Source: Ewingella sp. CoE-038-23 (GTDB taxonomy: Bacteria; Pseudomonadota; Gammaproteobacteria; Enterobacterales; Enterobacteriaceae). From it: a DNA stretch of 64,000 nt. Under the pieces are notes generated by a model, which was given only the letters and a program-made list of their open reading frames with translations, made no database searches and was not told where the DNA came from. This document shows, piece by piece, positions 11,460 to 48,989 of this stretch. The stretch is taken from NCBI RefSeq assembly GCF_040419245.1, contig NZ_JAZHOH010000001.1, positions 4,402,001 to 4,466,000 of the forward strand. The letters run 5' to 3'. The position numbers and the translations under genes were made by a program. The number at the start of each line of letters is the position of its first letter. Position 1 is the stretch's first letter.

Positions 11460-12374
11460 TCACTTCTCGTTCTTTTTGCACATCGGGAAGCCCAGCACTT
11501 CGCGGGAAGCGTAATACGCCTCAGCAACCGCTTTAGTCAGGGTACGGATGCGCAGAATGTAGCGCTGGCGTTCAGTCACGGAGATGGCTTTACGCGCGTC
11601 CAGCAGGTTAAAACAATGCGCCGCTTTCAGAATGCGTTCGTAAGCAGGCAGTGCCAGCGGCTTCTCAAGAGCCAACAGGGTTTGCGCTTCTTTCTCATGC
11701 TGCTCGAAACAGGTGAACAGGAAATCAACGTCGGCGTATTCGAAGTTATAAGTCGATTGCTCAACTTCGTTCTGGTGGAACACGTCGCCGTAGGTGGTTT
11801 TACCCAGCGGGCCGTCGCTCCAGACCAGGTCGTAAACGCTGTCTACGCCCTGAATGTACATCGCCAGACGCTCCAGACCGTAGGTAATTTCGCCGGTCAC
11901 AGGCTTACATTCCAGACCGCCAACCTGCTGGAAGTAAGTGAACTGCGTCACTTCCATGCCGTTCAGCCACACTTCCCAACCCAGACCCCATGCGCCAAGC
12001 GTTGGGTTTTCCCAGTTGTCTTCAACGAAGCGGATGTCGTGGATCAGCGGGTCAATACCCAGCTCTTTCAGCGAGCCGAGGTACAGCTCCTGTATGTTGT
12101 CCGGGGAAGGTTTGATCATCACCTGGAACTGGTAATAGTGTTGCAGGCGGTTTGGGTTCTCACCGTAGCGACCGTCAGTCGGGCGGCGTGACGGCTGGAC
12201 ATAGGCTGCCGCAAAAGGCTCAGGGCCGAGTGCGCGCAGGCTGGTCATCGGGTGCGAGGTACCCGCGCCGACTTCCATATCCAGTGGTTGAACAATGGTG
12301 CAGCCCTGCTGCGCCCAATAATCCTGAAGTGTCAGGATCAGGCCCTGAAAGGTCTTGGTATCAAACTTTTGCAT
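11460..12374 (-). CDS. glyQ: Glycyl-tRNA synthetase alpha subunit
   Basis: 304 aa with the class II synthetase motifs, starting [20 protein letters not shown]. GlyQ holds the catalytic site that activates glycine with ATP. It is the first gene of glyQ-glyS; a good -10 box (TATACT on the reverse strand, 12417-12422) lies about 43 bp upstream of the start. Confidence 0.98.
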
Positions 12375-28232: not shown

Positions 28233-28771
28233 GGTAATGCTACCAACTTGCTGATTTAGTGTATGATGGTGGTTTTGAGGTGCTCCAGTGGCTTCCATCT
28301 CCATCAGCTGTCCCTCCTGCTCAGCTACTGAAGGCATGGTGCGTAACGGTAAAAGTACTGCCGGACATCAGCGCTATATCTGCTCTCACTGCCGTAAAAC
28401 ATGGCAGCTACAGTTCACTTACACCGCCTCTCAGGCAGCAGTCGGTAAACTCACGCATACAACCGGGCAGTGACGTCATTGTCTGCGCTGAAATGGATGA
28501 ACAGTGGGGCTACGTCGGCGCTAAATCACGCAAGCGCTGGTTGTTTTACGCGTATGACAGGATACGGAGGACGGTTGTGGCGCACGTATTCGGTGAACGC
28601 ACGTTGGCCACGCTGGAGCGTCTTCCGGGCCTGCTGTCGGCCTTTGAGGTCGTGGTATGGATGACGGATGACTGGCCGCTTTATGAATCACGCCTGAAGG
28701 GAGAACTACATGACAAAGTCATTGGACATTATCTGAACATAAAACACTACCAGTAAGTTGGAGTCATTACC
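28233..28771 (+). mobile_element. Internally deleted IS1 (539 bp)
   Basis: Both IS1 ends are present (GGTAATGCTACCAACTTGC... and ...GGAGTCATTACC), but 229 bp are missing. One deletion joins the end of insA to the middle of insB (after ACCGCCTCTCAG), the other removes the insB 3' part (GGAGAACTACATG). No target duplication: flanks are CAAATTACT and CCTCAATCA. It cannot make transposase but could move in trans. It joins chromosomal to plasmid-type DNA. Confidence 0.9.
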
Positions 28772-28958
28772 CCTCAATCAAACGTGAGAAGTCGTCACCT
28801 TTAAAACTGGTCACATTTTCAATACCCAGATCGGAAGCAGACTGGTTGATAGTCTCTACCGCATAGAACTTTGCACCAGTCAGGCGCGGGGCTAACAGGT
28901 AAGATGAAATTAAGGTTTTACGAACACTGCCACTGTAATTAATTACCGCTACTTTCAT
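28772..28958 (-). pseudogene. stbB: StbB-like plasmid stability ATPase, N-terminal fragment
   Basis: About 62 residues (MKVAVINYSGSVRKTLISSYLLAPRL) resembling the start of StbB, a P-loop protein of the R388-type stb operon; the rest is cut off by IS1. The P-loop reads SGSVRKTL where SGNVGKTT would be expected, losing a conserved glycine. It follows stbA after 8 bp on the same strand. Confidence 0.65.
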
Positions 28959-28966
28959 AAATCACC

Positions 28967-29353
28967 TCAGAATTTTTTGTTGAACTTCTTAGGGTCGAAA
29001 TTCTCACCGATTTTCTTGAAGAATTCTTTATCAATAATGCCGGGACTCTCTGCTTTTTTACTTTCCTGCGCTTCAGGCTCAGACGGTTGTGTATTGTGCA
29101 ATACACTTTCCGCTGCACCCTTCGCGCTACTCTTATCATGTGTATTGTGCAATACATTTTTTCGGTTTTGCCGCGTTCTATACAGTGCCATCTCAAGCCC
29201 TTTGGCTGTTACCGAAAAGCTGTATTCGCTGTCGAGGATTTCAGCAATTTCATGCCGCGTTAGCCCTCTGTCCAGCCAGTTCTCGATTTCATTTAGGCGC
29301 AATCTGACAGCAGCCGATAAGTTGCGGGGTTTCAGATCTGCTGGTTTATTCAT
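28967..29353 (-). CDS. stbA: StbA-like plasmid stability DNA-binding protein
   Basis: 128 aa, starting MNKPADLKPRNLSAAVRLRLNEIENW, with an N-terminal helix-turn-helix (HEIAEILDSEYSFSVTAKGLEMAL) and a lysine-rich C-terminus. Size, order before stbB and the 11-bp repeat array directly upstream match StbA of R388-like plasmids, which binds such repeats and keeps low-copy plasmids stable. The family match is from memory of the operon pattern, not a search. Confidence 0.6.
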   Translation of the reverse strand: MNKPADLKPRNLSAAVRLRLNEIENWLDRGLTRHEIAEILDSEYSFSVTAKGLEMALYRTRQNRKNVLHNTHDKSSAKGAAESVLHNTQPSEPEAQESKKAESPGIIDKEFFKKIGENFDPKKFNKKF

Positions 29354-29415
29354 AACCCCCTCCGTTGTATGAAAATGACTCTACAACACTCGTAAGAAGG
29401 GGTCAATCGAGTTTT

Positions 29416-29560
29416 GTAGTTTATCTGTAGTTTTATTGTAGTCTATTTGTAGTCTGTCACGTTTTTTGTAGTTTATTTGTAGTTTTATTGTAGTCTATTT
29501 GTAGTCTTACAACACTAAGGCAAAACGTTTTTTGTAGTTTATCTGTAGTTTATCTGTAGT
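29416..29560 (-). repeat. Eleven GTAGT boxes at 11-bp spacing (stb centromere-like array)
   Basis: GTAGT occurs at 29416, 29427, 29438 and 29449; at 29468, 29479, 29490 and 29501; and at 29534, 29545 and 29556. Each group has an exact 11-bp period (unit like TTTGTAGTTTA), giving a 4+4+3 arrangement. This phased array upstream of stbA is the layout of StbA-binding direct repeats. Confidence 0.8.
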
Positions 29561-29573
29561 TTTTGGTTGCTCA

Positions 29574-29717
29574 GATGGTCATGCAAGCATGACCATCAAA
29601 GAATAGGACGCTTTTTAGCCAAATGCCCCTTAACCTACGGAGATCGCCCTACCAAAAAAAGATGATTTTTTATCCCTTAACCTGCTATACACCTAACGCA
29701 GCGTGATAAATCACGCT
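29574..29717. other. Two perfect inverted repeats beside the stb array, possible oriT remnant
   Basis: GATGGTCATGC-AA-GCATGACCATC at 29574-29597 and AGCGTGAT-AA-ATCACGCT at 29700-29717. In R388-type plasmids the transfer origin lies next to stb. No relaxase gene is present here and I could not identify a nic site. The remaining stretch to 29901 is AT-rich with no gene. Confidence 0.35.
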
Positions 29718-29901
29718 ATCACACTGATTTAAAAGGAAAAAAACAAAATTTAGCCATGCTGCGGTATTACCCAGGTATTACAAATCCAATCTAAATTACT
29801 GATTTAAATAACTTTTTATTTATTACTTTGGTAATACTATGATTTCACCGTATTAGACACCCTTTTTTCGTTTAAAAAATGCACAAATTGAGGACTGAAT
29901 G

Positions 29902-30290
29902 GGCTTTGTTGAATAAATCGAACTTTTGCTGAGTTGAAGGATCAGATCACGCATCTTCCCGACAACGCAGACCGTTCCGTGGCAAAGCAAAAGTTCAAAA
30001 TCACCAACTGGCCCACCTACAATAAAGCCCTCATCAACCGTGGCTCCATAACTTTCTGGCTGGATGATGAAGCTATTCAGGCCTGGTATGAGTCAGCAAC
30101 ACCTTCTTCACGAGGCAGACCTCAGCGCTATTCTGACCTTGCCATCACGACTGTGCTGGTCATTAAACGCGTATTCAGGCTGACCCTGCGCGCTGCGCAG
30201 GGCTTTATTGATTCCATTTTTTCTCTGATGAACGTTCCGCTACGCTGCCCGGATTACAGCTGTGTCAGCAGGCGGGCAAAGTCGGTTAAT
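29902..30290 (+). mobile_element. IS903-type (IS5 family) element, left fragment
   Basis: Starts with the terminal GGCTTTGTTGAATAAATC and encodes the first roughly 115 residues of the IS903-type transposase ([15 protein letters not shown]...), identical in sequence to the copy at 60469. It stops abruptly after AAGTCGGTTAA, where unrelated DNA begins. The remaining two thirds are lost. Confidence 0.9.
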
Positions 30291-31796
<1,506 letters not shown>

Positions 31797-31804
31797 CCAC
31801 TACA

Positions 31805-32425
31805 GTACGTGGGGGTATCAATAAAGTGGCTGACCTGAAAGGGAAAACCATCAGTGTCGATGCACCAGGAACCTCCTCCTATTTTCTGCTGGCCTGGATC
31901 CTCGATAAAAACGGCATGACGATGAAAGACGTCAAACTGGCAACCCTGGGGCCGGATGCCGCCGCTCATGCCTTTATTGCCGGGCAGAACGATGCCGCTG
32001 TGACGTACGAGCCGTATCTCTCCACCATCCGCCAAAGCCCGGACAAAGGCAAAATTCTGACCACCACACTGGATTATCCCATGGTGATGGACACCCTGGG
32101 TTGTACGCCATCCTGGCTGGATAAAAACCCCAAAGCGGCTCAGGCACTGGTAAATAGCTACTTTGAAGCCCTGGATATGATCAAAAAAGATCCGGATAAA
32201 GCCAATGAGATTATGGGGGCGGCGGTCAAAGAAACCGGCAAACAGTTTGCTGAAGAGTCCAGCTATCTGCGCTGGCAAGACCGTGATGCGAACAAGAAGT
32301 TCTTCAGTGGCGAGATTGTCACCTTTACCAACGAAGCGGCGCGTTTGCTGACGGAAATGAAAATCCTGCATAAAACGCCGGATATTAATACGTTGTATGA
32401 CGCGAAGTATGTGACTCAGCCATGA
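31805..32425 (+). pseudogene. ABC transporter substrate-binding protein, 5' end lost
   Basis: The last 206 residues of a periplasmic binding protein of the SsuA/TauA/ThiY type (VADLKGKTISVDAPGTSSYFLLAWIL ... AGQNDAAVTYEPYLS). The signal peptide and first lobe are missing, replaced by the IS3-family end. It heads a permease-ATPase set, so this importer is probably inactive unless another binding protein serves it. Substrate unknown; the neighbouring hut-like genes suggest an imidazole compound. Confidence 0.85.
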
Positions 32426-32436
32426 AGGACCACAAG

Positions 32437-33318
32437 ATGAACAGTCCTGTCAGTCAGGCCGCGGAATTTCCCGCCAGTACGCAGTCAGTTTTACGTGAGC
32501 CGGCGCCTCTGCCGGCAAGTAAAAAGGTCTGGCACAACCCGATGATGGTGCCACTGCGCCCCGTGGCGTCCCGTCATCGCTGGTTTTTGGGCTTCTGCTT
32601 TTTTGTGCTGTTTTTCGCGCTGTGGGCGCTGGTGACTTTTACCGGGCTGGTGTCGCCGACATTCCTTGCCAGTCCGGCCAGTATGTTGCAGGAAGGGGGG
32701 CTGTTATTTACCGATTTTGATTTCACAACAGATATCGGTATGACGGTAATGCGTGTACTGGGCGGCTTTATTCTGGCGTGCATTATCGCCGTGCCGCTGG
32801 GTATTCTGATGGGCTCATACAAACTGATCGAAGCGTTTTTTGAGCCCTTCGTTTCGTTTTGCCGCTACCTGCCCGCATCGGCGTTTGTCCCCCTGCTTAT
32901 TCTGTGGGCAGGGATTGGCGAAATGCAAAAAATACTGGTGATCTTTATCGGTTCGTTCTTTCAGATAACCCTGATGGTTGCGGTGGCTGTCGGCGCGGCG
33001 CGGCGCGATCTGGTGGAAGCGGCGTATACCCTTGGCGCGACCAACAAGAGCGTGGTGCGTCGGGTGATAATCCCCGGGGCGGCGCCGGAAATTGCGGAAC
33101 TGCTGCGCCTGGTGCTGGGCTGGGCATGGACCTATGTCATCGTGGCGGAACTGATTGGTTCATCCAGCGGGATAGGTCACATGATTGTCAATAGCCAGGC
33201 GTTACTCAATACCGGGCAAATGATTTTCGGCATTATCGTGATTGGCTGCATTGGATTGCTGTCTGATCTGTTGTTTAAAGCGGTGAATCGCCGCCTGTTT
33301 GTATGGAGTTCGCTGTGA
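32437..33318 (+). CDS. ABC transporter permease (SsuC/TauC type)
   Basis: 293 aa with about six membrane helices and the EAA loop region (DLVEAAYTLGATNKSVVRRVIIPGAAPEI) that contacts the ATPase. The ATG at 32437 has AAGGACC upstream and gives a plausible cytosolic N-terminus; an ATG five codons earlier is possible. It overlaps the ATPase start by one base (ATGA). Confidence 0.88.
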   Translation: MNSPVSQAAEFPASTQSVLREPAPLPASKKVWHNPMMVPLRPVASRHRWFLGFCFFVLFFALWALVTFTGLVSPTFLASPASMLQEGGLLFTDFDFTTDIGMTVMRVLGGFILACIIAVPLGILMGSYKLIEAFFEPFVSFCRYLPASAFVPLLILWAGIGEMQKILVIFIGSFFQITLMVAVAVGAARRDLVEAAYTLGATNKSVVRRVIIPGAAPEIAELLRLVLGWAWTYVIVAELIGSSSGIGHMIVNSQALLNTGQMIFGIIVIGCIGLLSDLLFKAVNRRLFVWSSL

Positions 33319-34103
33319 TGAGCTATCCGAAGCTGAGTGTTCGCCAGGTGGAACGCGTCTTCAGTGGCCCGAAAGGCGAGAAGACCCAGGCATTACTGCC
33401 CGTGGATTATCAGGTCAATGAGAACGACTTTATTACCATTCTCGGGCCTTCCGGGTGCGGTAAATCCACACTTTTACGCATTGTTGCCGGGCTGGATCAG
33501 CCCACCCGCGGCGAGGTCTGGCTGGATGGCGTGCTGGTCGATGGTCCGGGCGCGGATCGCGGCATGGTATTCCAGAGTTACACACTGTTCCCCTGGTTGA
33601 CGGTTGAGCAGAATATCTGCTTTGGCCTACAGGAACGCGGCGTGAGTAAAGCGGCACAAAAAGAGCGCAGCGACTACTTTATTAATAAGGTCGGTTTACG
33701 TGGGTTTGAGCAGCATTTCCCCCGTCAGTTGTCCGGCGGTATGCAACAGCGCACAGCCATTGCCCGCGCCCTGGCCAACGACCCGAAAATTCTGCTGATG
33801 GATGAACCTTTCGGCGCACTGGATAACCAGACGCGCGTCATGATGCAGGAACTGTTGTTGTCGATATGGGAATCTTCCCGCAAAACAGTCCTGTTTGTGA
33901 CCCACGATATTGATGAGGCCATTTTTATGGCCAATAAAGTGGCGATTTTCAGTGCGCGCCCCGGGCGAATCAAAACGGAAGTGGCGGTAGATTTTCCGCA
34001 CCCGCGTGATTATACCCTGAAAACATCACCAGAATTTATGGCATTGAAGGCGCGTATCACGGAAGAAATTCGTACGGAAACCCTGCAAACCATCGATCAC
34101 TAA
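33318..34103 (+). CDS. ABC transporter ATP-binding protein (SsuB/TauB type)
   Basis: 261 aa. Walker A GPSGCGKSTLL, signature LSGGMQQRTAIARAL, Walker B ILLMDEPFGALD and the switch histidine FVTHDID are all intact. It energises uptake through the preceding permease. Start ATG at 33318 coupled to the permease stop. Confidence 0.92.
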   Translation: MSYPKLSVRQVERVFSGPKGEKTQALLPVDYQVNENDFITILGPSGCGKSTLLRIVAGLDQPTRGEVWLDGVLVDGPGADRGMVFQSYTLFPWLTVEQNICFGLQERGVSKAAQKERSDYFINKVGLRGFEQHFPRQLSGGMQQRTAIARALANDPKILLMDEPFGALDNQTRVMMQELLLSIWESSRKTVLFVTHDIDEAIFMANKVAIFSARPGRIKTEVAVDFPHPRDYTLKTSPEFMALKARITEEIRTETLQTIDH

Positions 34104-34161
34104 GTTCGCGGTATGCAGCGCAGTTAATCATGTTTTAGCGTGAGTCAGGTTGTGCATAAAC

Positions 34162-34184
34162 ACCCGGTGTTACACCGGGTTTAC
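34162..34184 (+). terminator. Hairpin between the ABC genes and hutH
   Basis: ACCCGGTG-TTA-CACCGGGT followed by TTACTT, a weak T-rich tail. It may partly terminate the ABC operon before hutH. Confidence 0.5.
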
Positions 34185-34217
34185 TTCCCGTTTTACTTGT
34201 ATATACAGGAATAGATT

Positions 34218-35768
34218 ATGGCTGCTTCATCCACCGATTACACCCTTTGCCGCCTGCAACCCGGGCATGTCCATTTGCCCATGTTGCGACAAATATACCA
34301 GGGTAATGTCCGCCTTGCGCTGGCCGAAGAGGCCCGTGCCGATGTGCTGGCCTCCCAGGAAACAGTCACCCGCATTGTGGCATCGGGAAACGTGGTGTAC
34401 GGCATTAATACCGGGTTTGGCAAACTGGCGCAAACCCGTATTCCGGCGGAACGTCTGACCGAACTGCAACGAAACCTGGTGCTGTCCCACAGTGTGGGCA
34501 CAGGCAAAAACCTGGCGGATAACGTTGTTCGCCTGGTGATGGCGACGAAAATTCTCAGCCTCTCCCGGGGTCATTCCGGTATTCGTATTGAGGTGATTGA
34601 TGCACTGATAACGTTATTTAATGCGGGTGTGTACCCCTGTATTCCGGAAAAAGGATCCGTCGGCGCTTCGGGCGACCTGGCGCCGCTGGCGCATTTGTCA
34701 TTGATGCTGATTGGCGAAGGGCAGGTGACACTGGGTGGCGAAACGATGTCCGCGGTTGAAGGCCTGGCTGCCGCAGGGCTGAGCCCCTTTGAACTTGGGC
34801 CGAAAGAAGGTCTGGCATTACTTAACGGCACCCAGGTATCGACATCCCTCGCGTTGTCAGGTTTGTTTGAAGCAGAACGGGTGTTTTCCGCAGGCCTGGT
34901 GGCCGGGGCATTATCACTGGAAGCGATTAAAGGCTCAGTTAAACCGCTTGACCCGCGTATTCATGAAGCACGCGGCCAGGAAGGCCAGATTGCTGTCGCC
35001 GCTGCGCTGACGGCGATCCTGGCCGGTAGCGATATTGTGACATCCCATGCTAACTGCGGCCGGGTTCAGGACCCTTATTCCATTCGTTGTGTCCCTCAGG
35101 TTATGGGTGCCTGCCTTGATAACCTGCGACATGCGGCCCGCATTCTACGTATTGAAGCAAACGCAGCATCCGATAACCCTCTGGTTTTTGCCGAAAATGG
35201 CGACGTGATTTCTGGCGGGAATTTCCACGCAGAACCCGTGGCTTTCGCCGCGGACATCATTGCGCTGGCGGTTGCCGAAGTGGGGGCGATTTCTGAACGC
35301 AGAATGGCCTTATTGTTGGACAGCGGTTTGTCCGGCTTGCCGCCTTTCCTGGTAAACGATGGCGGCGTTAACTCCGGCTTTATGATTGCGCAGGTCACGG
35401 CCGCCGCGCTGGCATCAGAAAATAAATCGCTGGCACATCCGGGCAGTGTCGACAGCCTGCCCACCTCCGCCAATCAGGAAGATCACGTTTCAATGGCGAC
35501 CTATGCCGCCCGCCGTCTGGGCAATATGTGTTTTAACACCAGTGTGGTTGTCGGTATCGAAGCCATGGCCGCTGCCCAGGGACTTGATTTTCATCGTCCG
35601 TTGCAAAGTTCCGCCACACTGGAAAGCGAAATGAAGGCGATTCGGCAACATGTCGCTTTTCTCGAAAAAGATCGTCTGATGGCGCCGGATGTCGAAATGA
35701 TGCGTTTGTGGGCGTCCCGTGAACACTGGCCTGCGGCCATTGAAGCATTACTGCCGAGCTTTGCCTGA
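34218..35768 (+). CDS. hutH: Histidine ammonia-lyase
   Basis: 516 aa. The MIO cofactor triad Ala150-Ser151-Gly152 lies in [17 protein letters not shown], and the catalytic tyrosine is in [17 protein letters not shown]. It removes ammonia from histidine to give urocanate. Length matches the family (about 510 aa). It leads a run hutH-hutU-aminotransferase-hydroxyacid dehydrogenase-HcxA-like gene; hutI, hutG and the hutC repressor are absent here. Confidence 0.95.
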
Positions 35769-35811
35769 TAACGCTTTACATAAATTTCATTTTTTATAGA
35801 AGGATATGACC

Positions 35812-37494
35812 ATGAACGCGCCACAGAAAAATGCCGCCGCCCATGTCGTTCGCGCTCCCCAGGGAACAGCGCTGAGTTGTCAAAACTGGTTGATCGAAGC
35901 GGCTTATCGCATGATCCAAAACAACCTTGACCCCGATGTTGCCGAACGCCCGGAAGACCTGGTGGTCTATGGCGGTATTGGTAAAGCCGCCCGCAACTGG
36001 CCTGCCTTCGAAGCCATTCTGGACAGCCTGCGGGCGTTGCGTGAAGACGAAACCCTGCTGGTACAGTCCGGTAAGCCGGTCGGTGTTTTTCGCACCCATA
36101 CCAATGCGCCGCGCGTGTTGATTGCTAACTCCAATATTGTGCCGCACTGGGCCCACTGGGACCACTTTCACGAACTGGATAAAGCGGGCCTGATGATGTA
36201 CGGCCAGATGACAGCAGGCTCCTGGATTTACATTGGTGCGCAGGGCATTGTGCAGGGGACGTATGAAACTTTTGCCGAAGCGGGCCGACAGCACTACAAC
36301 GGCGACCTGCGGGGCAAATGGATTCTGACGGCAGGGCTTGGTGGTATGGGCGGCGCCCAACCGCTGGCTGGCGTGCTGGCAGGGGCCTGCGTCCTGGCCA
36401 TTGAATGCCAGGAATCCCACATTGATTTCCGTCTGCGTACCCGTTATGTGGACTATAAGACCCGCAGCCTCGATGAGGCGCTGGCGATGATTGAAAAAGC
36501 CTGTGCGGAGAAAAAAGCCATCTCTGTCGGCCTGCTGGGCAATGCCGCTGAGTTGATGCCGCAACTGGCGGCGCGGGCAAAAGCGGGTGGCCTGCGTCCG
36601 GATATTGTGACCGATCAGACCTCCGCTCATGATCCGCTTAATGGCTATCTGCCGGAAGGCTGGAGCCTGGAAAAATGGCAGGCCGCCCGTCAGTCAGATC
36701 CGCAATCCGTGGTGAAAGCCGCCCGCGCTTCTATGGCAAAACATGTCCAGGCCATGCTCGATTTTCACCATATGGGGATCCCCACCGTCGATTACGGCAA
36801 CAATATCCGCCAGGTCGCCAAAGAAGAGGGCGTTGAAAACGCCTTTGATTTCCCGGGTTTTGTCCCGGCCTACATCCGCCCGCTGTTCTGTGAAGGCAAA
36901 GGGCCATTCCGTTGGGTTGCCCTTTCCGGCGACCCGGAAGATATCTATAAGACCGACGCGAAACTCAAAGAACTCTTCCCGGACAACACCAATCTGATCA
37001 ACTGGCTGGACATGGCGCGTGAGCGCATTGCCTTCCAGGGGCTGCCTGCGCGTATTTGCTGGCTGGGCCTGGGTGAACGTCACCGCGCCGGGCTGGCGTT
37101 TAACGAAATGGTGCGTAACTGCGAACTGAAAGCGCCGATTGTTATTGGCCGTGATCATCTGGATACGGGGTCAGTGGCATCGCCGAACCGTGAAACCGAA
37201 GCGATGAAAGATGGCTCTGATGCGGTATCCGACTGGCCATTACTCAATGCATTGCTCAATACCGCCGGGGGTGCCACCTGGGTCAGTCTGCACCATGGTG
37301 GCGGTGTTGGCATGGGCTTTTCACAACATGCCGGGATGGTGATTGTGTGCGATGGCACTGAAGATGCCGATGCCCGACTGGCGCGTGTGCTGTGGAACGA
37401 CCCTGCCACCGGGGTGATGCGCCATGCGGATGCTGGCTATGAACAGGCAAAAGCCTGTGCTGAACGTCATCATTTGAATTTGCCGATGATCTGA
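35812..37494 (+). CDS. hutU: Urocanate hydratase
   Basis: 560 aa, the usual size, with the NAD-binding glycine-rich stretch [17 protein letters not shown] and the conserved [23 protein letters not shown] region. It converts urocanate to 4-imidazolone-5-propionate. The ATG at 35812 has AGGAT eight bases upstream; one at 35806 is closer to the RBS and less likely. Product should pass to HutI, which is not encoded in this window. Confidence 0.95.
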
Positions 37495-37552
37495 TGCCTG
37501 AATGCCGGATGGCCTGGTGTTGTGCCTCCGGCGTTTTTTTGAGGGATATGCA

Positions 37553-38719
37553 ATGGCTTCTGATGTAGCAGTTTCCAGTTCACTTGTTGATTCACAACAG
37601 CAGATACTGAAAAACCTCGCCAGGCCCACAGCGCGGTCATTAAGCCTGTATAACGCCGGGTTGTCGGCGGAAGCGGTACGACAGCAATATGGGTTGAGCC
37701 ATATCGCCAAACTGGCCAGTAATGAAAATCCGCTGGGCGCCAGCCCGCAGGTCATCGCGGCACTGCAGGCGGATGCCGGTTTCAGCGCAGTCTATTCGGA
37801 TGCTGCCAGTACAGCGCTGCGCGATGCGCTGGCAACGTATACCGGTGTGCAGGCCGGGAATATTGTTATCGGGAATGGTTCAGAAGATATCCTGCATATG
37901 CTGGCACTGGCCTTTCTCAACCCCGGGGACCGCGTGGTCACATTGCGACCTTCATTTGGTCTGCATGAGATTTTCCCGCGCATGATGGGCGCGGACGTCA
38001 CCCTGGTTGACGTGAATAAGCAGCATCAGTTCGATATCGCCGCCTGGACTCAGGCACTTTCGATGCCCGCCAAAATGGTGATTTTCAGCAACCCGTCGAA
38101 TCCCGTGGGCTGCATGCTCGACAATGCAGGTTTTGAGCGCATCATCGCCGCGGCACCTCAGGACTGTGTGCTGGTGATTGATGAGGCCTATTTCGAATAT
38201 TGCCGGAACAACCCGGATTATCCGGACAGCCAGCGTGTGCTGGCCGCGCAGTCGCGCCCCTGGATTGTGCTGCGTACTTTTTCGAAAGCCTACGGCCTGG
38301 CGGGATTGCGGGTGGGCTATGGCTTAGCCAGTCACCCTGAACTGGTCAATCTGCTCAATCGCGTTCGCACACCGTTTAATATTAACCGTTCGGCACAAGC
38401 GGCGGCCGTGGTAGCTCTGGGGGATCAGCAACATGTTAATGACAGCATTGCGCTGGTCAGTGCGCAGCGCGACATGATGTCGGCGCAGCTCACGGCGCTG
38501 GGTTTCCGCGTTGCGCCATCCTGCGCCAACTTCCTGTTTTTTGACTGCGGGCAGCCTGCGGCAGAACTGGCGCAGCGTCTGCTGTGCGATGGCGTCATTA
38601 TCAAGCCATGGCGGGAGAAGGGGTATGAACACTGGATCCGGGTGTCTGTGGGGAATGAACAGGATAACCAGCAGTTTATTCGGAGCCTGAAACGTATCCT
38701 GGCGGAGGATGCCGCGTGA
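37553..38719 (+). CDS. HisC-like PLP aminotransferase
   Basis: 388 aa, fold-type I aminotransferase of the histidinol-phosphate aminotransferase group. Motifs: KLASNENPLG, YSDAAS (where YPD is typical), NPSNPVG, VIDEAYFEY and the PLP lysine in RTFSKAYGLAGLRVGYG. Next to hutH it most plausibly interconverts imidazole-pyruvate and histidine; biosynthetic HisC activity is an alternative but his biosynthesis genes are absent. The ATG at 37553 has GAGGGATATGCA upstream. The next gene overlaps by four bases. Confidence 0.8.
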   Translation: MASDVAVSSSLVDSQQQILKNLARPTARSLSLYNAGLSAEAVRQQYGLSHIAKLASNENPLGASPQVIAALQADAGFSAVYSDAASTALRDALATYTGVQAGNIVIGNGSEDILHMLALAFLNPGDRVVTLRPSFGLHEIFPRMMGADVTLVDVNKQHQFDIAAWTQALSMPAKMVIFSNPSNPVGCMLDNAGFERIIAAAPQDCVLVIDEAYFEYCRNNPDYPDSQRVLAAQSRPWIVLRTFSKAYGLAGLRVGYGLASHPELVNLLNRVRTPFNINRSAQAAAVVALGDQQHVNDSIALVSAQRDMMSAQLTALGFRVAPSCANFLFFDCGQPAAELAQRLLCDGVIIKPWREKGYEHWIRVSVGNEQDNQQFIRSLKRILAEDAA

Positions 38720-39873
38720 CAGTGTTGAACATTGATGATTTACGTCGGCAGGCAAAGCGCACGCTTCCCCGTTTTGCTTTCAGTTATCTGGAGGGTGGGG
38801 CCGATGATGAACAAACGTTACAGGATAATCGCCGTGTTTTCGGCCGCTGGCGCTTTATTCCCCCTGTGCTGACAGATGCTACGCAACGGGATTTATCCGT
38901 CACGCTGTGTGGACAGAAGCTGGCTGCGCCCTTGTTTATCGCCCCGACAGGCTACAACGGCATGCTGCGGTTTGGCGCAGATGTGATGCTGGCGCGGGCC
39001 GCCAGAGAGGCGGGCATCGGCTATATACAGAGTACGGTTTCGACGGCCTCCATTGAAGAGATCGCCGCAGAAAACATTCCCCGACACTGGTTCCAGCTCT
39101 ATGTGCTGAAAGACCGCGCCGTCACGACAGGGTTACTGACCCGGGCCCGGGCGGCGGGTTGTACGACCCTGGTGGTTTCTGTGGATGCGGTGCACTTTGG
39201 CAACCGTGAAAAGGACAAACGGAATTACCGACGGCCCATGGAACTATCTCTGCCGAGCATGCTGGACATTGCGATGCATCCCGGCTGGGTGTGGCGAGCC
39301 ATCAGGCCCGCAGGCATCCCTGGCTTTGGCAACCTGAAATCTTATGTTCCGGCTGACAAACAACGAGGCGCAGGTGGCGCGAGCTATTTTGCCGAACAGA
39401 TGGATACCCACCTGGACTGGGCCACACTGCACTGGATCCGCACACAGTGGTCAGGTCCCCTGTTAATTAAAGGTATCCTGGCGCCTGAAGATGCCCGGCG
39501 CGCTTTTGCCGCGGGCGTGGATGGCATTGTGTTATCAAACCATGGCGGGCGACAACTGGACGGTTCAGTCAGCCCCATGGAAGTACTGCAGGAGATTCGT
39601 CAGTGCTGCGGTCCTGATGCTGTCATCCTTATCGACAGTGGATTTCGCCGTGGCACCGATGTGGTGAAAGCACTGGCGCTGGGCGCGAATGGCGTGCTGA
39701 TTGGCCGACCTGTGCTCTATGGCGTCGCTGCCTTTGGTGAGGCGGGTGCGAAACAAGCGCTGAACATTATTTTGCAGGAGATGGATCGCACGCTGGCGCA
39801 ACTGGGATGCACTTCGATTGCCCAGTTAGGGCCGCATTTGCTGCGTTTTCAGCCTGCTATGGCGGGGTTTTAA
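38716..39873 (+). CDS. FMN-dependent 2-hydroxyacid dehydrogenase/oxidase
   Basis: 385 aa, (S)-2-hydroxyacid oxidase family (LldD/glycolate oxidase fold). FMN- and substrate-binding residues are in SYLEGGADDEQT, FIAPTGYNGML, FQLYVLKDR and the active-site histidine/arginine motif SNHGGRQLDG, with DSGFRRGTDVVKAL near the end. It starts with GTG overlapping the aminotransferase stop (GTGA), implying a linked role. Lactate is the best-known substrate; in this context imidazole-lactate is a reasonable alternative, giving imidazole-pyruvate for the aminotransferase. Confidence 0.85.
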   Translation: MTVLNIDDLRRQAKRTLPRFAFSYLEGGADDEQTLQDNRRVFGRWRFIPPVLTDATQRDLSVTLCGQKLAAPLFIAPTGYNGMLRFGADVMLARAAREAGIGYIQSTVSTASIEEIAAENIPRHWFQLYVLKDRAVTTGLLTRARAAGCTTLVVSVDAVHFGNREKDKRNYRRPMELSLPSMLDIAMHPGWVWRAIRPAGIPGFGNLKSYVPADKQRGAGGASYFAEQMDTHLDWATLHWIRTQWSGPLLIKGILAPEDARRAFAAGVDGIVLSNHGGRQLDGSVSPMEVLQEIRQCCGPDAVILIDSGFRRGTDVVKALALGANGVLIGRPVLYGVAAFGEAGAKQALNIILQEMDRTLAQLGCTSIAQLGPHLLRFQPAMAGF

Positions 39874-39906
39874 TATGTACACCATCGTTATCACGGAGCA
39901 TCAGTT

Positions 39907-40992
39907 ATGCAGGCACAAAATATTATCTTCCCGGCGCAGATCCTGCGTGGCGCAGGTGCGGTTTCGCGTATCGGTGAGGTCTGCGGATTATTGGGTTCAC
40001 GGGCGCTGATTATCGGCGGCCATAGTGGCCTGGCGGCGGTGGAAGCGCATATCCGCTATCAACTGGCGGCATCATCGGTGACGGTGGTTGGCCGGGAGTG
40101 GTTTGGCGGCGTGTGCAGCGAAAGCCATATTCATCGTCTGGCGCAAGTGGTGCAGGCCACCGGCGCAGACCTGGTCATTGGCGTGGGTGGGGGAAAAGCC
40201 CTGGATACCAGTAAAGCCGTGGGCGTGGGGACCCGTGTCCCGGTGGTCACCGTGCCAACCATTGCGGCAACCTGCGCGGCGGTGACGCCACTCACTGTCC
40301 GTTATCACGATGACGGCCATTTTCGGGATCTCTTTCCACTGAATCAGGCGCCTGCTGTGGTGATTATTGACACAGAAATCATAGCCGCCGCGCCGCTGCG
40401 CTGGTTGGCGGCAGGCCTTGGCGATACACTGGCGAAATGGTACGAGTTTCGCGCTATCAGCGCCGGGCTGGACAATCACAGCGGTATCGCCCGGGCGTCC
40501 ATTGCCAACAGCCGTATCTGCTATGACCTGATCAATACCCACGGCCCCGCCGCCTGCGATGCAGTTCGCAAAGGGGTGCCCGATGCTGCGCTGGAGCAAG
40601 TACTGGATGCGATATTTATGTTTGCCGGACTGACCTCATTAATGAGCAGTGGGGCACATGCTGCTGCCGCTCATGCAATTTATGAGGGGTTTACCGTATG
40701 CGATAAAACCCGCGAATTTGGTCATGGCTTATTGGTGGGATTTGGCAACCTTTGCCTGCTGGCGCTGGAGAACCGCAGCGATGAGGAATTGCTGGAGGCC
40801 ATTGGCCTGGCCCGCGCGTGCGCTATCCCGCTCAGCCTGCGGGAAATTGCTGAACTGGACAGCACGGAACTGGCGGGGATTATTGATATGGCATTGCATG
40901 CGCCGGATATGGCGAACATGCCGGCTCCGGTCACAGCGGGCGCACTGTATAGCGCCATTGCGCGTGTGGAACATCAGGCCGGGTTGTTGTAG
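39907..40992 (+). CDS. HcxA/YbdH-like hydroxycarboxylate dehydrogenase (iron-alcohol dehydrogenase family)
   Basis: 361 aa of the glycerol dehydrogenase-like family. NAD-binding GVGGGKALDTSKAV, then VPTIAATCAAVTPLTVRY and LAAGLGDTLAKWYE with the metal-binding aspartate; later histidines (AAAHAIYEG and EFGHGLLVGF) complete the metal site. It most resembles E. coli YbdH/HcxA, which reduces 2-oxoacids to 2-hydroxyacids and lies next to a methionine/histidine-type aminotransferase. Here it would interconvert a 2-hydroxyacid and 2-oxoacid, possibly of opposite stereochemistry or direction to the FMN enzyme. Confidence 0.8.
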   Translation: MQAQNIIFPAQILRGAGAVSRIGEVCGLLGSRALIIGGHSGLAAVEAHIRYQLAASSVTVVGREWFGGVCSESHIHRLAQVVQATGADLVIGVGGGKALDTSKAVGVGTRVPVVTVPTIAATCAAVTPLTVRYHDDGHFRDLFPLNQAPAVVIIDTEIIAAAPLRWLAAGLGDTLAKWYEFRAISAGLDNHSGIARASIANSRICYDLINTHGPAACDAVRKGVPDAALEQVLDAIFMFAGLTSLMSSGAHAAAAHAIYEGFTVCDKTREFGHGLLVGFGNLCLLALENRSDEELLEAIGLARACAIPLSLREIAELDSTELAGIIDMALHAPDMANMPAPVTAGALYSAIARVEHQAGLL

Positions 40993-41081
40993 TACCCTCA
41001 GCAGCGTATCCCGATGGTGGAAAACGTGAATACGCTGTTTCCCTGTTGTCGGTCTTCGTTCGCGCAGGTGCCCATTGTGAG

Positions 41082-41378
41082 TCAGTGAAACGCATAACGC
41101 CCTTCGCCCACCAAAATGGTTTGACCCTTGAGCGCCGCCGTGTCGGTGAGAAAATCGAGTTGCACCAGCGCGTTGCTGTTCCCTTGATTGAACTGGAAAT
41201 ACTTATCGCCAATACGCAGCGCCGGATTGCCCGCGCGCGTTGTCATCGGGAGGTCGAAGAGCGCGCTCCAGCGCCTGGCTGTGGCGTACGGGTTCTCCAC
41301 TTCAAACTCGGCGGCGGACAGAGCAACCTCACCGGCAGGATGGGGCTGGATAATCCCTTGTTGGTGGAGGTGCTCCAG
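41082..41378 (-). pseudogene. VOC-family protein, C-terminal fragment
   Basis: About 98 residues (SAAEFEVENPYATARRWSALFDLP ... IGDKYFQFNQG) like the second half of a glyoxalase/VOC domain. The N-terminus is cut by the IS5-family end at 41379. Convergent to the HcxA-like gene; it may belong to the same source segment. Confidence 0.65.
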
Positions 41379-42896
<1,518 letters not shown>

Positions 42897-46518: not shown

Positions 46519-47757
46519 TCAGACCGGGTAGCAAATCTCTTCCGGCTGGCGCTGCATGATGACTTTACCGTGACGAACAGAGGTCAGCACTTTGGCCTGG
46601 CGGCACACCGCATCGTAGTCATTTTCCGCATCTAGGATAAGCAGGTTCGCCGGGCGCCCTTCGGCAATGCCGTAGTTATCACCTAAGCACAGCGCACGGG
46701 CACTGTTATCAGTAATCAGATCGAGGCAGCGCTGCAAATCCTCATATCCCAGCATGTGGCAAATATGCAGACCGGCATCGAGAATACGCATGATGTTGCC
46801 GTTGCCCACCGGATACCACGGATCCTGAATGGAGTCCTGCGCAAAACAGACGTTGATCCCGGCGCGGTCCAGCTCTGCCACCCGTGTTACGCCGCGACGT
46901 TTCGGCCAGGTGTCGAAGCGTCCTTGCAGGTGAATGCTTTCGGTTGGACAAGAGATAAAGTTGATGCCCGACGCTTTAAGCAGGCGGAACAGCTTCGAGC
47001 AGTAGGCGTTATCGTAAGAGCCCATGGCGCAGGTATGGCTGGCGGTGACCTGTGCGCCCATCCCACGCACCCGGGCTTCTTCCGCCAGCACTTCCAGGAA
47101 GCGTGATTGTGGGTCGTCGATTTCATCGCAATGCACATCGACCAGACAGCCATGGCGCTGGGCCAGATCCATCAAAAAGCCCAGCGAACTGACGCCTTTA
47201 TCGCGGGTATTTTCGTAGTGCGGAATGCCGCCCACCACGTCGGCGCCCATCTCGATAGCGCGCGTCATCAGCTCTCGGCCACCGGGGAAGGATTCAATGC
47301 CTTCTTGCGGAAAGGCGACGATTTGCAGGTCGATAAGCTGGGCCGCCTCCTTTTTCACTGCCAGCATCGCCTCAAGCGCCGTCAGGGAAGGATCGGTCAC
47401 ATCAATATGGGTGCGCACGTGCTGCACGCCGTTATCGCGTAACATACCGATGGTTTTCAGCGCCCGCTGGCGCGTATCTTCAACCGTTACGCTCGCTTTG
47501 CGCTGGCTCCAGCGGGCGATACCCTCAAACAGTGTGCCGCTCATATTCCACTCCGGCTCGCCCGCGGTCAGGGTGGCATCAAGATGGATATGCGGCTCGA
47601 CGAACGGCGGGATAACCAGCTTTTGTTGCGCGTCGATATCGCTGGCGTCAGCCGTCTGCACGGCGGCCTGCGGAGTGATGCTCTTGATCACGCCGTCATC
47701 TAAGTCGAGGGTATAAAGCGATTCTTTATGGCGCAGGCGTGCGTTGATAATTTTCAT
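46519..47757 (-). CDS. codA: Cytosine deaminase-like amidohydrolase
   Basis: 412 aa, similar to CodA. Metal ligands: HIH in VEPHIHLDATL, histidine in DVHCDEIDD and aspartate in CFAQDSIQDPW; substrate glutamine in VAFPQEGI and the catalytic Glu in HCDEIDD are kept. E. coli CodA reads HDD where this reads QDS, so the residue after the metal aspartate (Asp314 in CodA, which contacts the base) is serine. It may therefore prefer another amino-pyrimidine or related ring. It overlaps pucR by four bases and shares an operon with a CodB-like permease. Confidence 0.85.
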   Translation of the reverse strand: MKIINARLRHKESLYTLDLDDGVIKSITPQAAVQTADASDIDAQQKLVIPPFVEPHIHLDATLTAGEPEWNMSGTLFEGIARWSQRKASVTVEDTRQRALKTIGMLRDNGVQHVRTHIDVTDPSLTALEAMLAVKKEAAQLIDLQIVAFPQEGIESFPGGRELMTRAIEMGADVVGGIPHYENTRDKGVSSLGFLMDLAQRHGCLVDVHCDEIDDPQSRFLEVLAEEARVRGMGAQVTASHTCAMGSYDNAYCSKLFRLLKASGINFISCPTESIHLQGRFDTWPKRRGVTRVAELDRAGINVCFAQDSIQDPWYPVGNGNIMRILDAGLHICHMLGYEDLQRCLDLITDNSARALCLGDNYGIAEGRPANLLILDAENDYDAVCRQAKVLTSVRHGKVIMQRQPEEICYPV

Positions 47758-48989
47758 GAGTATTCCCGTAAATGGTTTTGTGACATACGCCAGATCGTTA
47801 ACGCGACCGAGGCGTTGAGGTGGAATTGCGGATGGCTAATCAGATAGCTGGTCAGCTTTTCAATACGTTGGATGCGTTGATGTAACGTGTTGCGGTGAAT
47901 GCCAAGCCGCTCGGCTGCTCTGACCACGTTCCCGTTCTCCTGGAGCAGTGTTTCCAGCGTCTCCATCAATAGCCACGGACTTTTGCGATCGCGTTCTATC
48001 AGGCAGCCAAGGGTGTCGTGCATAAAATCGCTCAGCAGCGCAGGGTCGCCGATGGCAGAGAGGAGCTTGATAAATCCCAGTTGTTGATAGTCGGTAATGC
48101 GCTGGGCCGGGCGCAGAGTATCGCTAAGATCCAGGGCCTGACGCGCCTGCGACAGCGCGCGCTGATAGTCCTGTAATTGCTGCACCCGAGCGGAAAGGCC
48201 ACACAGTAGCGACAGCCTGTCGTCACCTTCCGCCAGCGCGAGCAGCCACTGTGCTAACCACTTTTTCTGCTGATAAAACTCACCGTCCTCATCCGGCAGC
48301 AGGAAGATAAACATATTGCTGCGCTCGACCAGCGGAAAGGGGTTCTCCTGTTGATTGAGCTGCTGCTGCAATCGCTGACGGATGGTACGTCGCGCCTGCT
48401 GTAACCAGGCCTCGGCCTGCCCGGGTGGAAACTGGCGAAACAGGTTTTGTATCCCCTCAAGACGCAATGCCACTACCCGCAGGGGGCGGCTAAAATCCAG
48501 TTGTTGGTGGATAGCTCGTTGCTGCAGGATGTGCAGATCGGGAAAATCGCCGGTTAACAGTTGCAACAGAATATCGCGCTGCGATTGCAGGGCATTTTCA
48601 CTGCGCACCAGCGCAGTGCCGATGCGTTCGGTGACAATCACCATCTTTAGCAGATAGGGCTGTTCGATCAGCGGAATGCCCAGCTCGTCGGCCAGTGCGA
48701 TCAGGCGAGGGGGGATCGCCTGAATATACGCATCGCCGGTGAGGATCACCATCCCGGCTATCCCGCGCTGTTTGCCTTCCATCAGTAAATGGATCAGGTT
48801 GTCTTCATCGCGGGGATGGTTGATGCCGGTGATAAAGACCAGCTCCCCGCCCATGATCCATTCGGCGATATTTTCATTTTCCGCCACGTAGTACCAGCGA
48901 ACCGCCAGTTGCAGCCCCTGTTTACCGGCACGCAGGCGCATGGGGGAGAGTTCCTCCAGGGCGAGGATTTCGCTGACCGTCAGGCTCAT
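47754..48989 (-). CDS. PucR-family transcriptional regulator
   Basis: 411 aa. N-terminal PucR domain (TVSEILALEELSPMRLRAGKQG ... GGELVFITGINHPRD) and C-terminal PucR HTH (LLQENGNVVRAAERLGIHRNTLHQRIQRIEKL). PucR regulators control purine, allantoin and nucleobase catabolism. It lies between codB and codA, 2 bp after the codB stop, so it likely controls its own operon in response to the transported base; two palindromes upstream of codB are candidate sites. Confidence 0.88.
   Translation of the reverse strand: MSLTVSEILALEELSPMRLRAGKQGLQLAVRWYYVAENENIAEWIMGGELVFITGINHPRDEDNLIHLLMEGKQRGIAGMVILTGDAYIQAIPPRLIALADELGIPLIEQPYLLKMVIVTERIGTALVRSENALQSQRDILLQLLTGDFPDLHILQQRAIHQQLDFSRPLRVVALRLEGIQNLFRQFPPGQAEAWLQQARRTIRQRLQQQLNQQENPFPLVERSNMFIFLLPDEDGEFYQQKKWLAQWLLALAEGDDRLSLLCGLSARVQQLQDYQRALSQARQALDLSDTLRPAQRITDYQQLGFIKLLSAIGDPALLSDFMHDTLGCLIERDRKSPWLLMETLETLLQENGNVVRAAERLGIHRNTLHQRIQRIEKLTSYLISHPQFHLNASVALTIWRMSQNHLREYS

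Follow-up and report, generated by a model that had tools for sequence, protein, structure and literature searches.

An IS3-truncated copy of a plasmid-borne extended hut cluster in Ewingella sp. CoE-038-23, with genes proposed for imidazole-lactate breakdown

The region described here is a 64,000-nucleotide stretch (the window) of Ewingella sp. CoE-038-23 (NZ_JAZHOH010000001.1, positions 4,402,001 to 4,466,000), which lies on the 4.66-Mb contig of a 5.16-Mb genome in 14 contigs. Window positions 31805 to 40992 hold part of a histidine utilization (hut) cluster, read on the forward strand throughout. Its enzyme genes are hutH, histidine ammonia-lyase (34218..35768; TIGR01225, 685 bits against a cut-off of 539); hutU, urocanate hydratase (35812..37494; TIGR01228, 957 bits against 375); a gene for a HisC-like aminotransferase, the proposed imidazole-pyruvate/histidine aminotransferase (37553..38719; TIGR01141, 298.5 bits against 276.55); a gene for a flavin mononucleotide (FMN) 2-hydroxyacid dehydrogenase, the proposed L-imidazole-lactate dehydrogenase (38716..39873; PF01070, 443 bits); and a gene for a GldA-like dehydrogenase of the iron-containing alcohol dehydrogenase (ADH) family (39907..40992; PF00465). 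The start of the FMN gene overlaps the aminotransferase stop by 4 bases. Model scores and coordinates confirmed the order of these five genes, overlapping start included, as given in an initial annotation made from the DNA sequence.

That annotation also placed an ATP-binding cassette (ABC) importer in front of hutH and set the cluster, without hutI and hutG, apart from standard hut operons, and neither claim held. The permease (32437..33318, forward strand; PF00528) and ATPase (33318..34103, forward strand; PF00005) are 100% identical to their counterparts on plasmid pMCR10_090065 (L005). The substrate-binding protein (SBP) gene is a 3' part (31805..32425, forward strand; tblastn of the L005 SBP, 100%) that keeps residues 123-328 of 328 and no signal peptide, and it joins an IS3-family element at 31804/31805; with residues 1-122 lost, the window importer cannot be complete. 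The element occupies 30547..31804 on the forward strand, carries a transposase open reading frame (ORF) at 31026-31796 (NF033516, 269 bits against a cut-off of 160), and both of its ends begin with TGTAGTGG. On L005 and on plasmid pECO-cbb3 (L006) the cluster is intact: one strand carries a CMD-family gene with hutG, hutI and hutC, and the other hutF, hutD, the SBP, permease and ATPase genes, hutH, hutU and the hisC-like, FMN and GldA-like genes. From 31805 rightwards the window is 99.8-100% identical to the plasmids. On the left, 30287..30546 (forward strand) is left over from the interval that separates the CMD-family gene and hutG, window 30287-30549 being 100% identical to L005 5883-6145; L005 resumes at its position 12001 at window 31805, so that the IS3-family element in between replaces hutG, hutI, hutC, hutF, hutD and SBP residues 1-122. 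Further left, 28233..30289 (forward strand) is a plasmid-backbone remnant, 99.85% identical to L005 2528-4583, where stbA and a partial IS903-type element lie. No hutI, hutG or hutC was found in the window, and all three are in the intact plasmid form. The plasmid comparison shows a local deletion, so the missing hutI and hutG are a truncation artefact, and a natural hut operon without them was ruled out. On the evidence of these alignments, the window copy is a plasmid-derived, IS3-truncated, degraded import of an extended hut cluster.

In PLSDB, 121 of 72,556 records match, and in 54 of them at least 80% of the 15.9-kb cluster is present in one place; for the 10-kb query taken from the window, coverage of at least 80% was reached in 11 of 5,426 Escherichia coli genomes. 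E. coli plasmids (L007 10001-13808) also carry a shorter piece, with the hutU 3' end and the hisC, FMN and ADH genes, that a Tn3-type element has cut and that lies close to resistance genes. On the Enterobacter roggenkampii plasmid with the intact cluster, mcr-10.1 lies a few kb away (L005 25874-27493).

The Ewingella chromosome has a second, ordinary hut locus (L053 6263-14890) with hutG, hutI, hutC, hutF, hutD, hutH and hutU, whose proteins are 50-91% identical to the plasmid counterparts. HutC-type boxes stand before its hutI, hutF and hutH, and the surrounding 17 kb gave no match to the hisC-like, FMN or ADH genes.

Conservation was followed with the FMN protein as the marker. It was found in 13/295 genomes of the family, 2/394 of the order and 5/369 of the class (E 1e-100), and in 3/398 of the phylum (E 1e-98). 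These samples overlap, and the window's own genome is counted in every one of them. Thirteen diverged Enterobacterales loci (L025-L037; 20 kb each, FMN protein 61-84% identical), 12 from the family sample and one from another, were compared with more distant relatives (L038-L041, 47-51% identical, 12-20 kb each; L054-L055, 44-46%, 16-20 kb). A maximum-likelihood tree of 23 proteins places the window FMN protein and those of the 13 loci in one group, with support of 100/99. The gene-order search proposed with the initial annotation was borne out in part: the order hutU-hisC-FMN is kept in 7/13 loci (L025-L031), and the ADH gene is present in five (L025-L028 and L030). Elsewhere, hutC stands with hisC-FMN (L034) or with FMN (L032), hutH and hutU not being nearby, or FMN lies beside a second module described below (L033, L035 and L037); the stretch of L036 has none of the hut, hisC or second-module neighbours around FMN. 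HutU was found in 12 of the 13 genomes at E 1e-100, the exception being G471, the genome of L036. The six distant relatives have no hut match in their 12-20-kb stretches, and the one 40% relative confirmed in a genome-contig scan with P0002 has no hut neighbour within 11.9 kb. Judged by its recurrence in 7 of 13 loci, the hutU-hisC-FMN arrangement is more than chance.

Regulation was read from HutC-type palindromes, scored against a consensus at no more than two mismatches. The window has one such site, CTTGTATATACAGG (34196..34209, forward strand), 8 bases before hutH and with one mismatch; this predicted HutC-type operator is a feature of a HutC regulon. The 13 loci together contain 27 sites of this quality, against 0.25 expected from Markov shuffles. 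A box stands within 250 bases of the FMN or hisC-FMN head in 5/6 loci of the clade that have no hutH/hutU upstream, against 0/6 loci outside it, where the best FMN-head sites show 5-6 mismatches. Among 224 other ORF heads, seven have a box; four of these are the heads of hutC genes, and the remaining three belong to ORFs overlapping or facing a head that was counted before. G471, whose locus L036 has no box, has no HutC match at E 1e-60. In G509 and G604, a second HutC gene (57-59% identical to plasmid HutC) adjoins FMN or hisC-FMN (L032 11212-11946; L034 7593-8324), these genomes having another HutC elsewhere; that of G509 passes TIGR02018 with 289 bits against a cut-off of 220.

The solved chain nearest to the FMN enzyme is (S)-mandelate dehydrogenase 6bfg. 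Tyr24, Tyr129, Asp157, Arg164, Lys252, His276 and Arg279, which we take to be the catalytic residues, are identical in 15 aligned rows. The enzyme shares the PF01070 fold family, these residues and a membrane-type insert with LldD and (S)-mandelate dehydrogenase: the segment around HPGW aligns with the host's own LldD paralogues, which by analogy suggests membrane-bound, quinone-linked oxidation. It differs from the LldD and mandelate enzymes in forming the separate clade noted above and in scoring 316 bits against a cut-off of 376 with PRK11197; the LldD model NF033901 is missed by far (288 bits against 550). This last score, together with the order kept in diverged genomes, the HutC-type boxes, the second HutC beside FMN and the retained catalytic residues, argues against the view that the dehydrogenases and the aminotransferase are unrelated passengers (for lactate oxidation, for example) that came to lie with hut by chance. 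The decay of the window copy among insertion sequence (IS) elements and the still shorter pieces on E. coli plasmids would fit such passengers, and we hold that view to be very improbable.

The HisC-like enzyme passes TIGR01141, the model for biosynthetic HisC (histidinol-phosphate transaminase), and just misses PRK05166 (528 bits against 540). The window's genome has another HisC-family gene, 28% identical to the cluster protein, which on reading by eye adjoins an apparent hisD and hisB; since this other gene exists, histidinol phosphate is disfavoured as the substrate of the cluster enzyme. The C-termini also differ, GIILRDQ..CLRITVG in the other HisC against VIIKPW..WIRVSVG in the cluster enzyme; the Arg changed in the latter is presumed to contact phosphate in HisC, and we take this as a weak hint. 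The GldA-like enzyme is nearest to glycerol dehydrogenase and keeps the metal-ligand motifs, with a PRK09423 score of 273 bits that stays below the GldA cut-off of 336. It had been labelled HcxA-like in the initial annotation, a label that was dropped: PRK10586, which we take to be YbdH/HcxA, gives 168 bits against a cut-off of 429. A role in ergothioneine/thiourocanate breakdown was likewise rejected, HutU scoring 690 bits against a thiourocanate hydratase cut-off of 930.

Conserved order and HutC-type operators give good support, at the level of sequence, for counting the aminotransferase and the FMN dehydrogenase among the enzymes of histidine breakdown. That part of the linear route suggested earlier stands, and imidazole-lactate is its inferred substrate. 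The reading we lean towards is that an imidazole hydroxy acid, most likely imidazole-lactate, is converted by the intact cluster through histidine to urocanate. The FMN enzyme would oxidise L-imidazole-lactate to imidazole-pyruvate at the membrane, the HisC-like enzyme would aminate this to histidine, and HutH and then HutU would carry histidine through urocanate to imidazolone propionate, with urocanate lifting HutC repression of the gene set. The GldA-like enzyme might act on the opposite enantiomer or on a related alcohol. For the later steps, the window strain would use chromosomal hutI and hutG, and for import another transporter. The direction towards histidine is favoured because the FMN enzyme is of the LldD/mandelate class and shares regulation with hutH. 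Enzymes of this class give electrons to quinones and act as oxidases or dehydrogenases, and hutH under common regulation would compete for histidine. Both points tell against reverse use, an overflow of histidine to imidazole-pyruvate and imidazole-lactate; aminotransferases are reversible and reduction of the keto acid by an NAD(P)-type enzyme of the ADH family is conceivable, and even so we rate overflow as very improbable. The forward route was reportedly described by Coote and Hassall in 1973, who are said to have followed imidazolyl-L-lactate degradation in Pseudomonas testosteroni via imidazole-pyruvate and histidine. The proposed route is thus reportedly the same and the organism another; no gene or protein of the Pseudomonas testosteroni pathway was found for comparison.

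The second module adjoins FMN in 8/13 loci (L027 12555-18572; L029 11611-16955; L030 50-6004; L031 3126-9400; L032 2621-9620; L033 10586-17591; L035 2464-9472; L037 10721-17655). It consists of an NMT1-type ABC importer, a HisD-family dehydrogenase, a protein of about 440 residues and a short-chain dehydrogenase/reductase (SDR), with a zinc-dependent ADH (Zn-ADH) in 4/8. The ~440-residue protein has no Pfam or NCBIfam match and carries the motif HGDAHNAN; its predicted model (mean pLDDT 90.5) resembles PDB structures of phosphotransferase-type kinases (best E 9e-6; TM by query 0.29-0.46 among the 50 matches listed), so that its assignment as a kinase is one of fold likeness only. Boxes with at most two mismatches precede 6/7 module heads and the seventh has three; the head of the second importer in L030 lies outside the stretch, hence seven of eight heads were scored. 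In the 295 family genomes, the FMN protein occurs in 13, the kinase-fold protein in 8 and both in 7 (hypergeometric 3.8e-10, with no correction for kinship). Among the 120 FMN matches listed, 19, counted by eye, have a longest contig of equal length to that of one of the 120 kinase-fold matches listed; three of these contigs are 9-24 kb long, and some matches are named Vibrio or Celerinatantimonas. The module may supply related imidazole alcohols and perhaps takes up and oxidises an imidazole alcohol. These associations bring in another account, in which the extra enzymes act on some other imidazole compound from the neighbouring module, such as a histidinol-like alcohol or an imidazole diol, and imidazole-lactate is an intermediate at most or uninvolved. 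The adjoining importer, HisD-like, kinase-fold and SDR genes, the co-occurrence and the module boxes all agree with it, as does the common action of GldA-like enzymes on vicinal diols. The plasmid cluster, L025, L026 and L028 have FMN, hisC and ADH without the module in the stretches read, and on balance this account appears rather unlikely.

Several observations weigh against imidazole-lactate breakdown by the cluster as proposed. The link of FMN to the HisD/kinase module in 8/13 loci means that the FMN substrate may come from there. In G509, G564 and G638, which have the FMN protein, a search at E 1e-60 gave no HisC-like match, and these genomes would need a different aminotransferase. G455, a genome chosen for its kinase and outside the 13 loci, carries the hisC and ADH genes and lacks an FMN match at E 1e-100; it also has the second module (L074-L075), here too preceded by boxes. 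The parts of the cluster are thus separable. Three ORFs between the GldA-like gene of G455 and the module were considered as a substitute hydroxyacid dehydrogenase; they proved to be a sucrose-6-phosphate hydrolase, a sugar permease and one ORF without a family match. On the side of regulation, two box-like sites occur in the non-clade locus L039, away from FMN and the only two in the six non-clade loci, and G834 has boxes and HutU with no HutC match at E 1e-60. No consensus promoter was found at hutH when 31500-41500 was scanned, and the two sites in that range (38118 and 40856) are fewer than in shuffles (7.1).

Downstream of the cluster, a small hypothetical gene (41085..41393, reverse strand; tblastn of the L005 'hyp' protein, 100%) is found on the plasmids too. 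An IS6-family transposase gene (42122..42844, forward strand; NF033587, 275.5 bits against a cut-off of 125) lies near the right end of the plasmid-derived stretch, 42077-42896 being 100% identical to an IS26-bearing stretch of L006. Beyond it are a gene for a cytosine deaminase-like amidohydrolase (46519-47757, minus strand; PRK09230, 598 bits against a cut-off of 483) and, next to it, a 411-residue ORF (47754-48989).

The HutC-controlled hut operon of Leyn et al. 2016 (PMC5343134) has in common with the intact plasmid form hutH, hutU, hutI, hutG, hutF, hutD, hutC, an ABC importer and HutC-type boxes. The plasmid cluster adds the hisC-like, FMN and GldA-like genes, and the window copy is without hutI, hutG, hutC, hutF and hutD. 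In the portions of its main text that were covered, no hydroxyacid dehydrogenase, aminotransferase or histidinol gene is named. No literature assigning this gene set was found, most subscription papers being outside the search. The route itself is old biochemistry. Beta-imidazolelactate and histidinol both appear in a table of bean root exudate metabolites in PMC4192682, which fits a plant-associated origin.

Tentatively, the HutC regulon could be a wider imidazole-scavenging system in plant-associated Enterobacterales and some Vibrio-type relatives, comprising two ABC importers, an FMN imidazole-lactate dehydrogenase, the HisC-like and GldA-like enzymes, and a module (HisD-like, kinase-fold, Zn-ADH and SDR) that would oxidise imidazole alcohols such as histidinol. 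Part of this system would have moved to plasmids, offering hosts without hut, such as E. coli, the whole route from imidazole hydroxy acids to glutamate. If the proposed function is correct, the cluster would supply candidates for the genes behind a bacterial pathway whose biochemistry has been known since 1973, and the HutC regulon would be seen to grow by whole enzyme sets. The labels 'lactate/mandelate dehydrogenase' and 'HisC' in such clusters would need correcting, and the cluster would be a case of plasmids spreading a nutrient trait among clinical and environmental Enterobacteriaceae.

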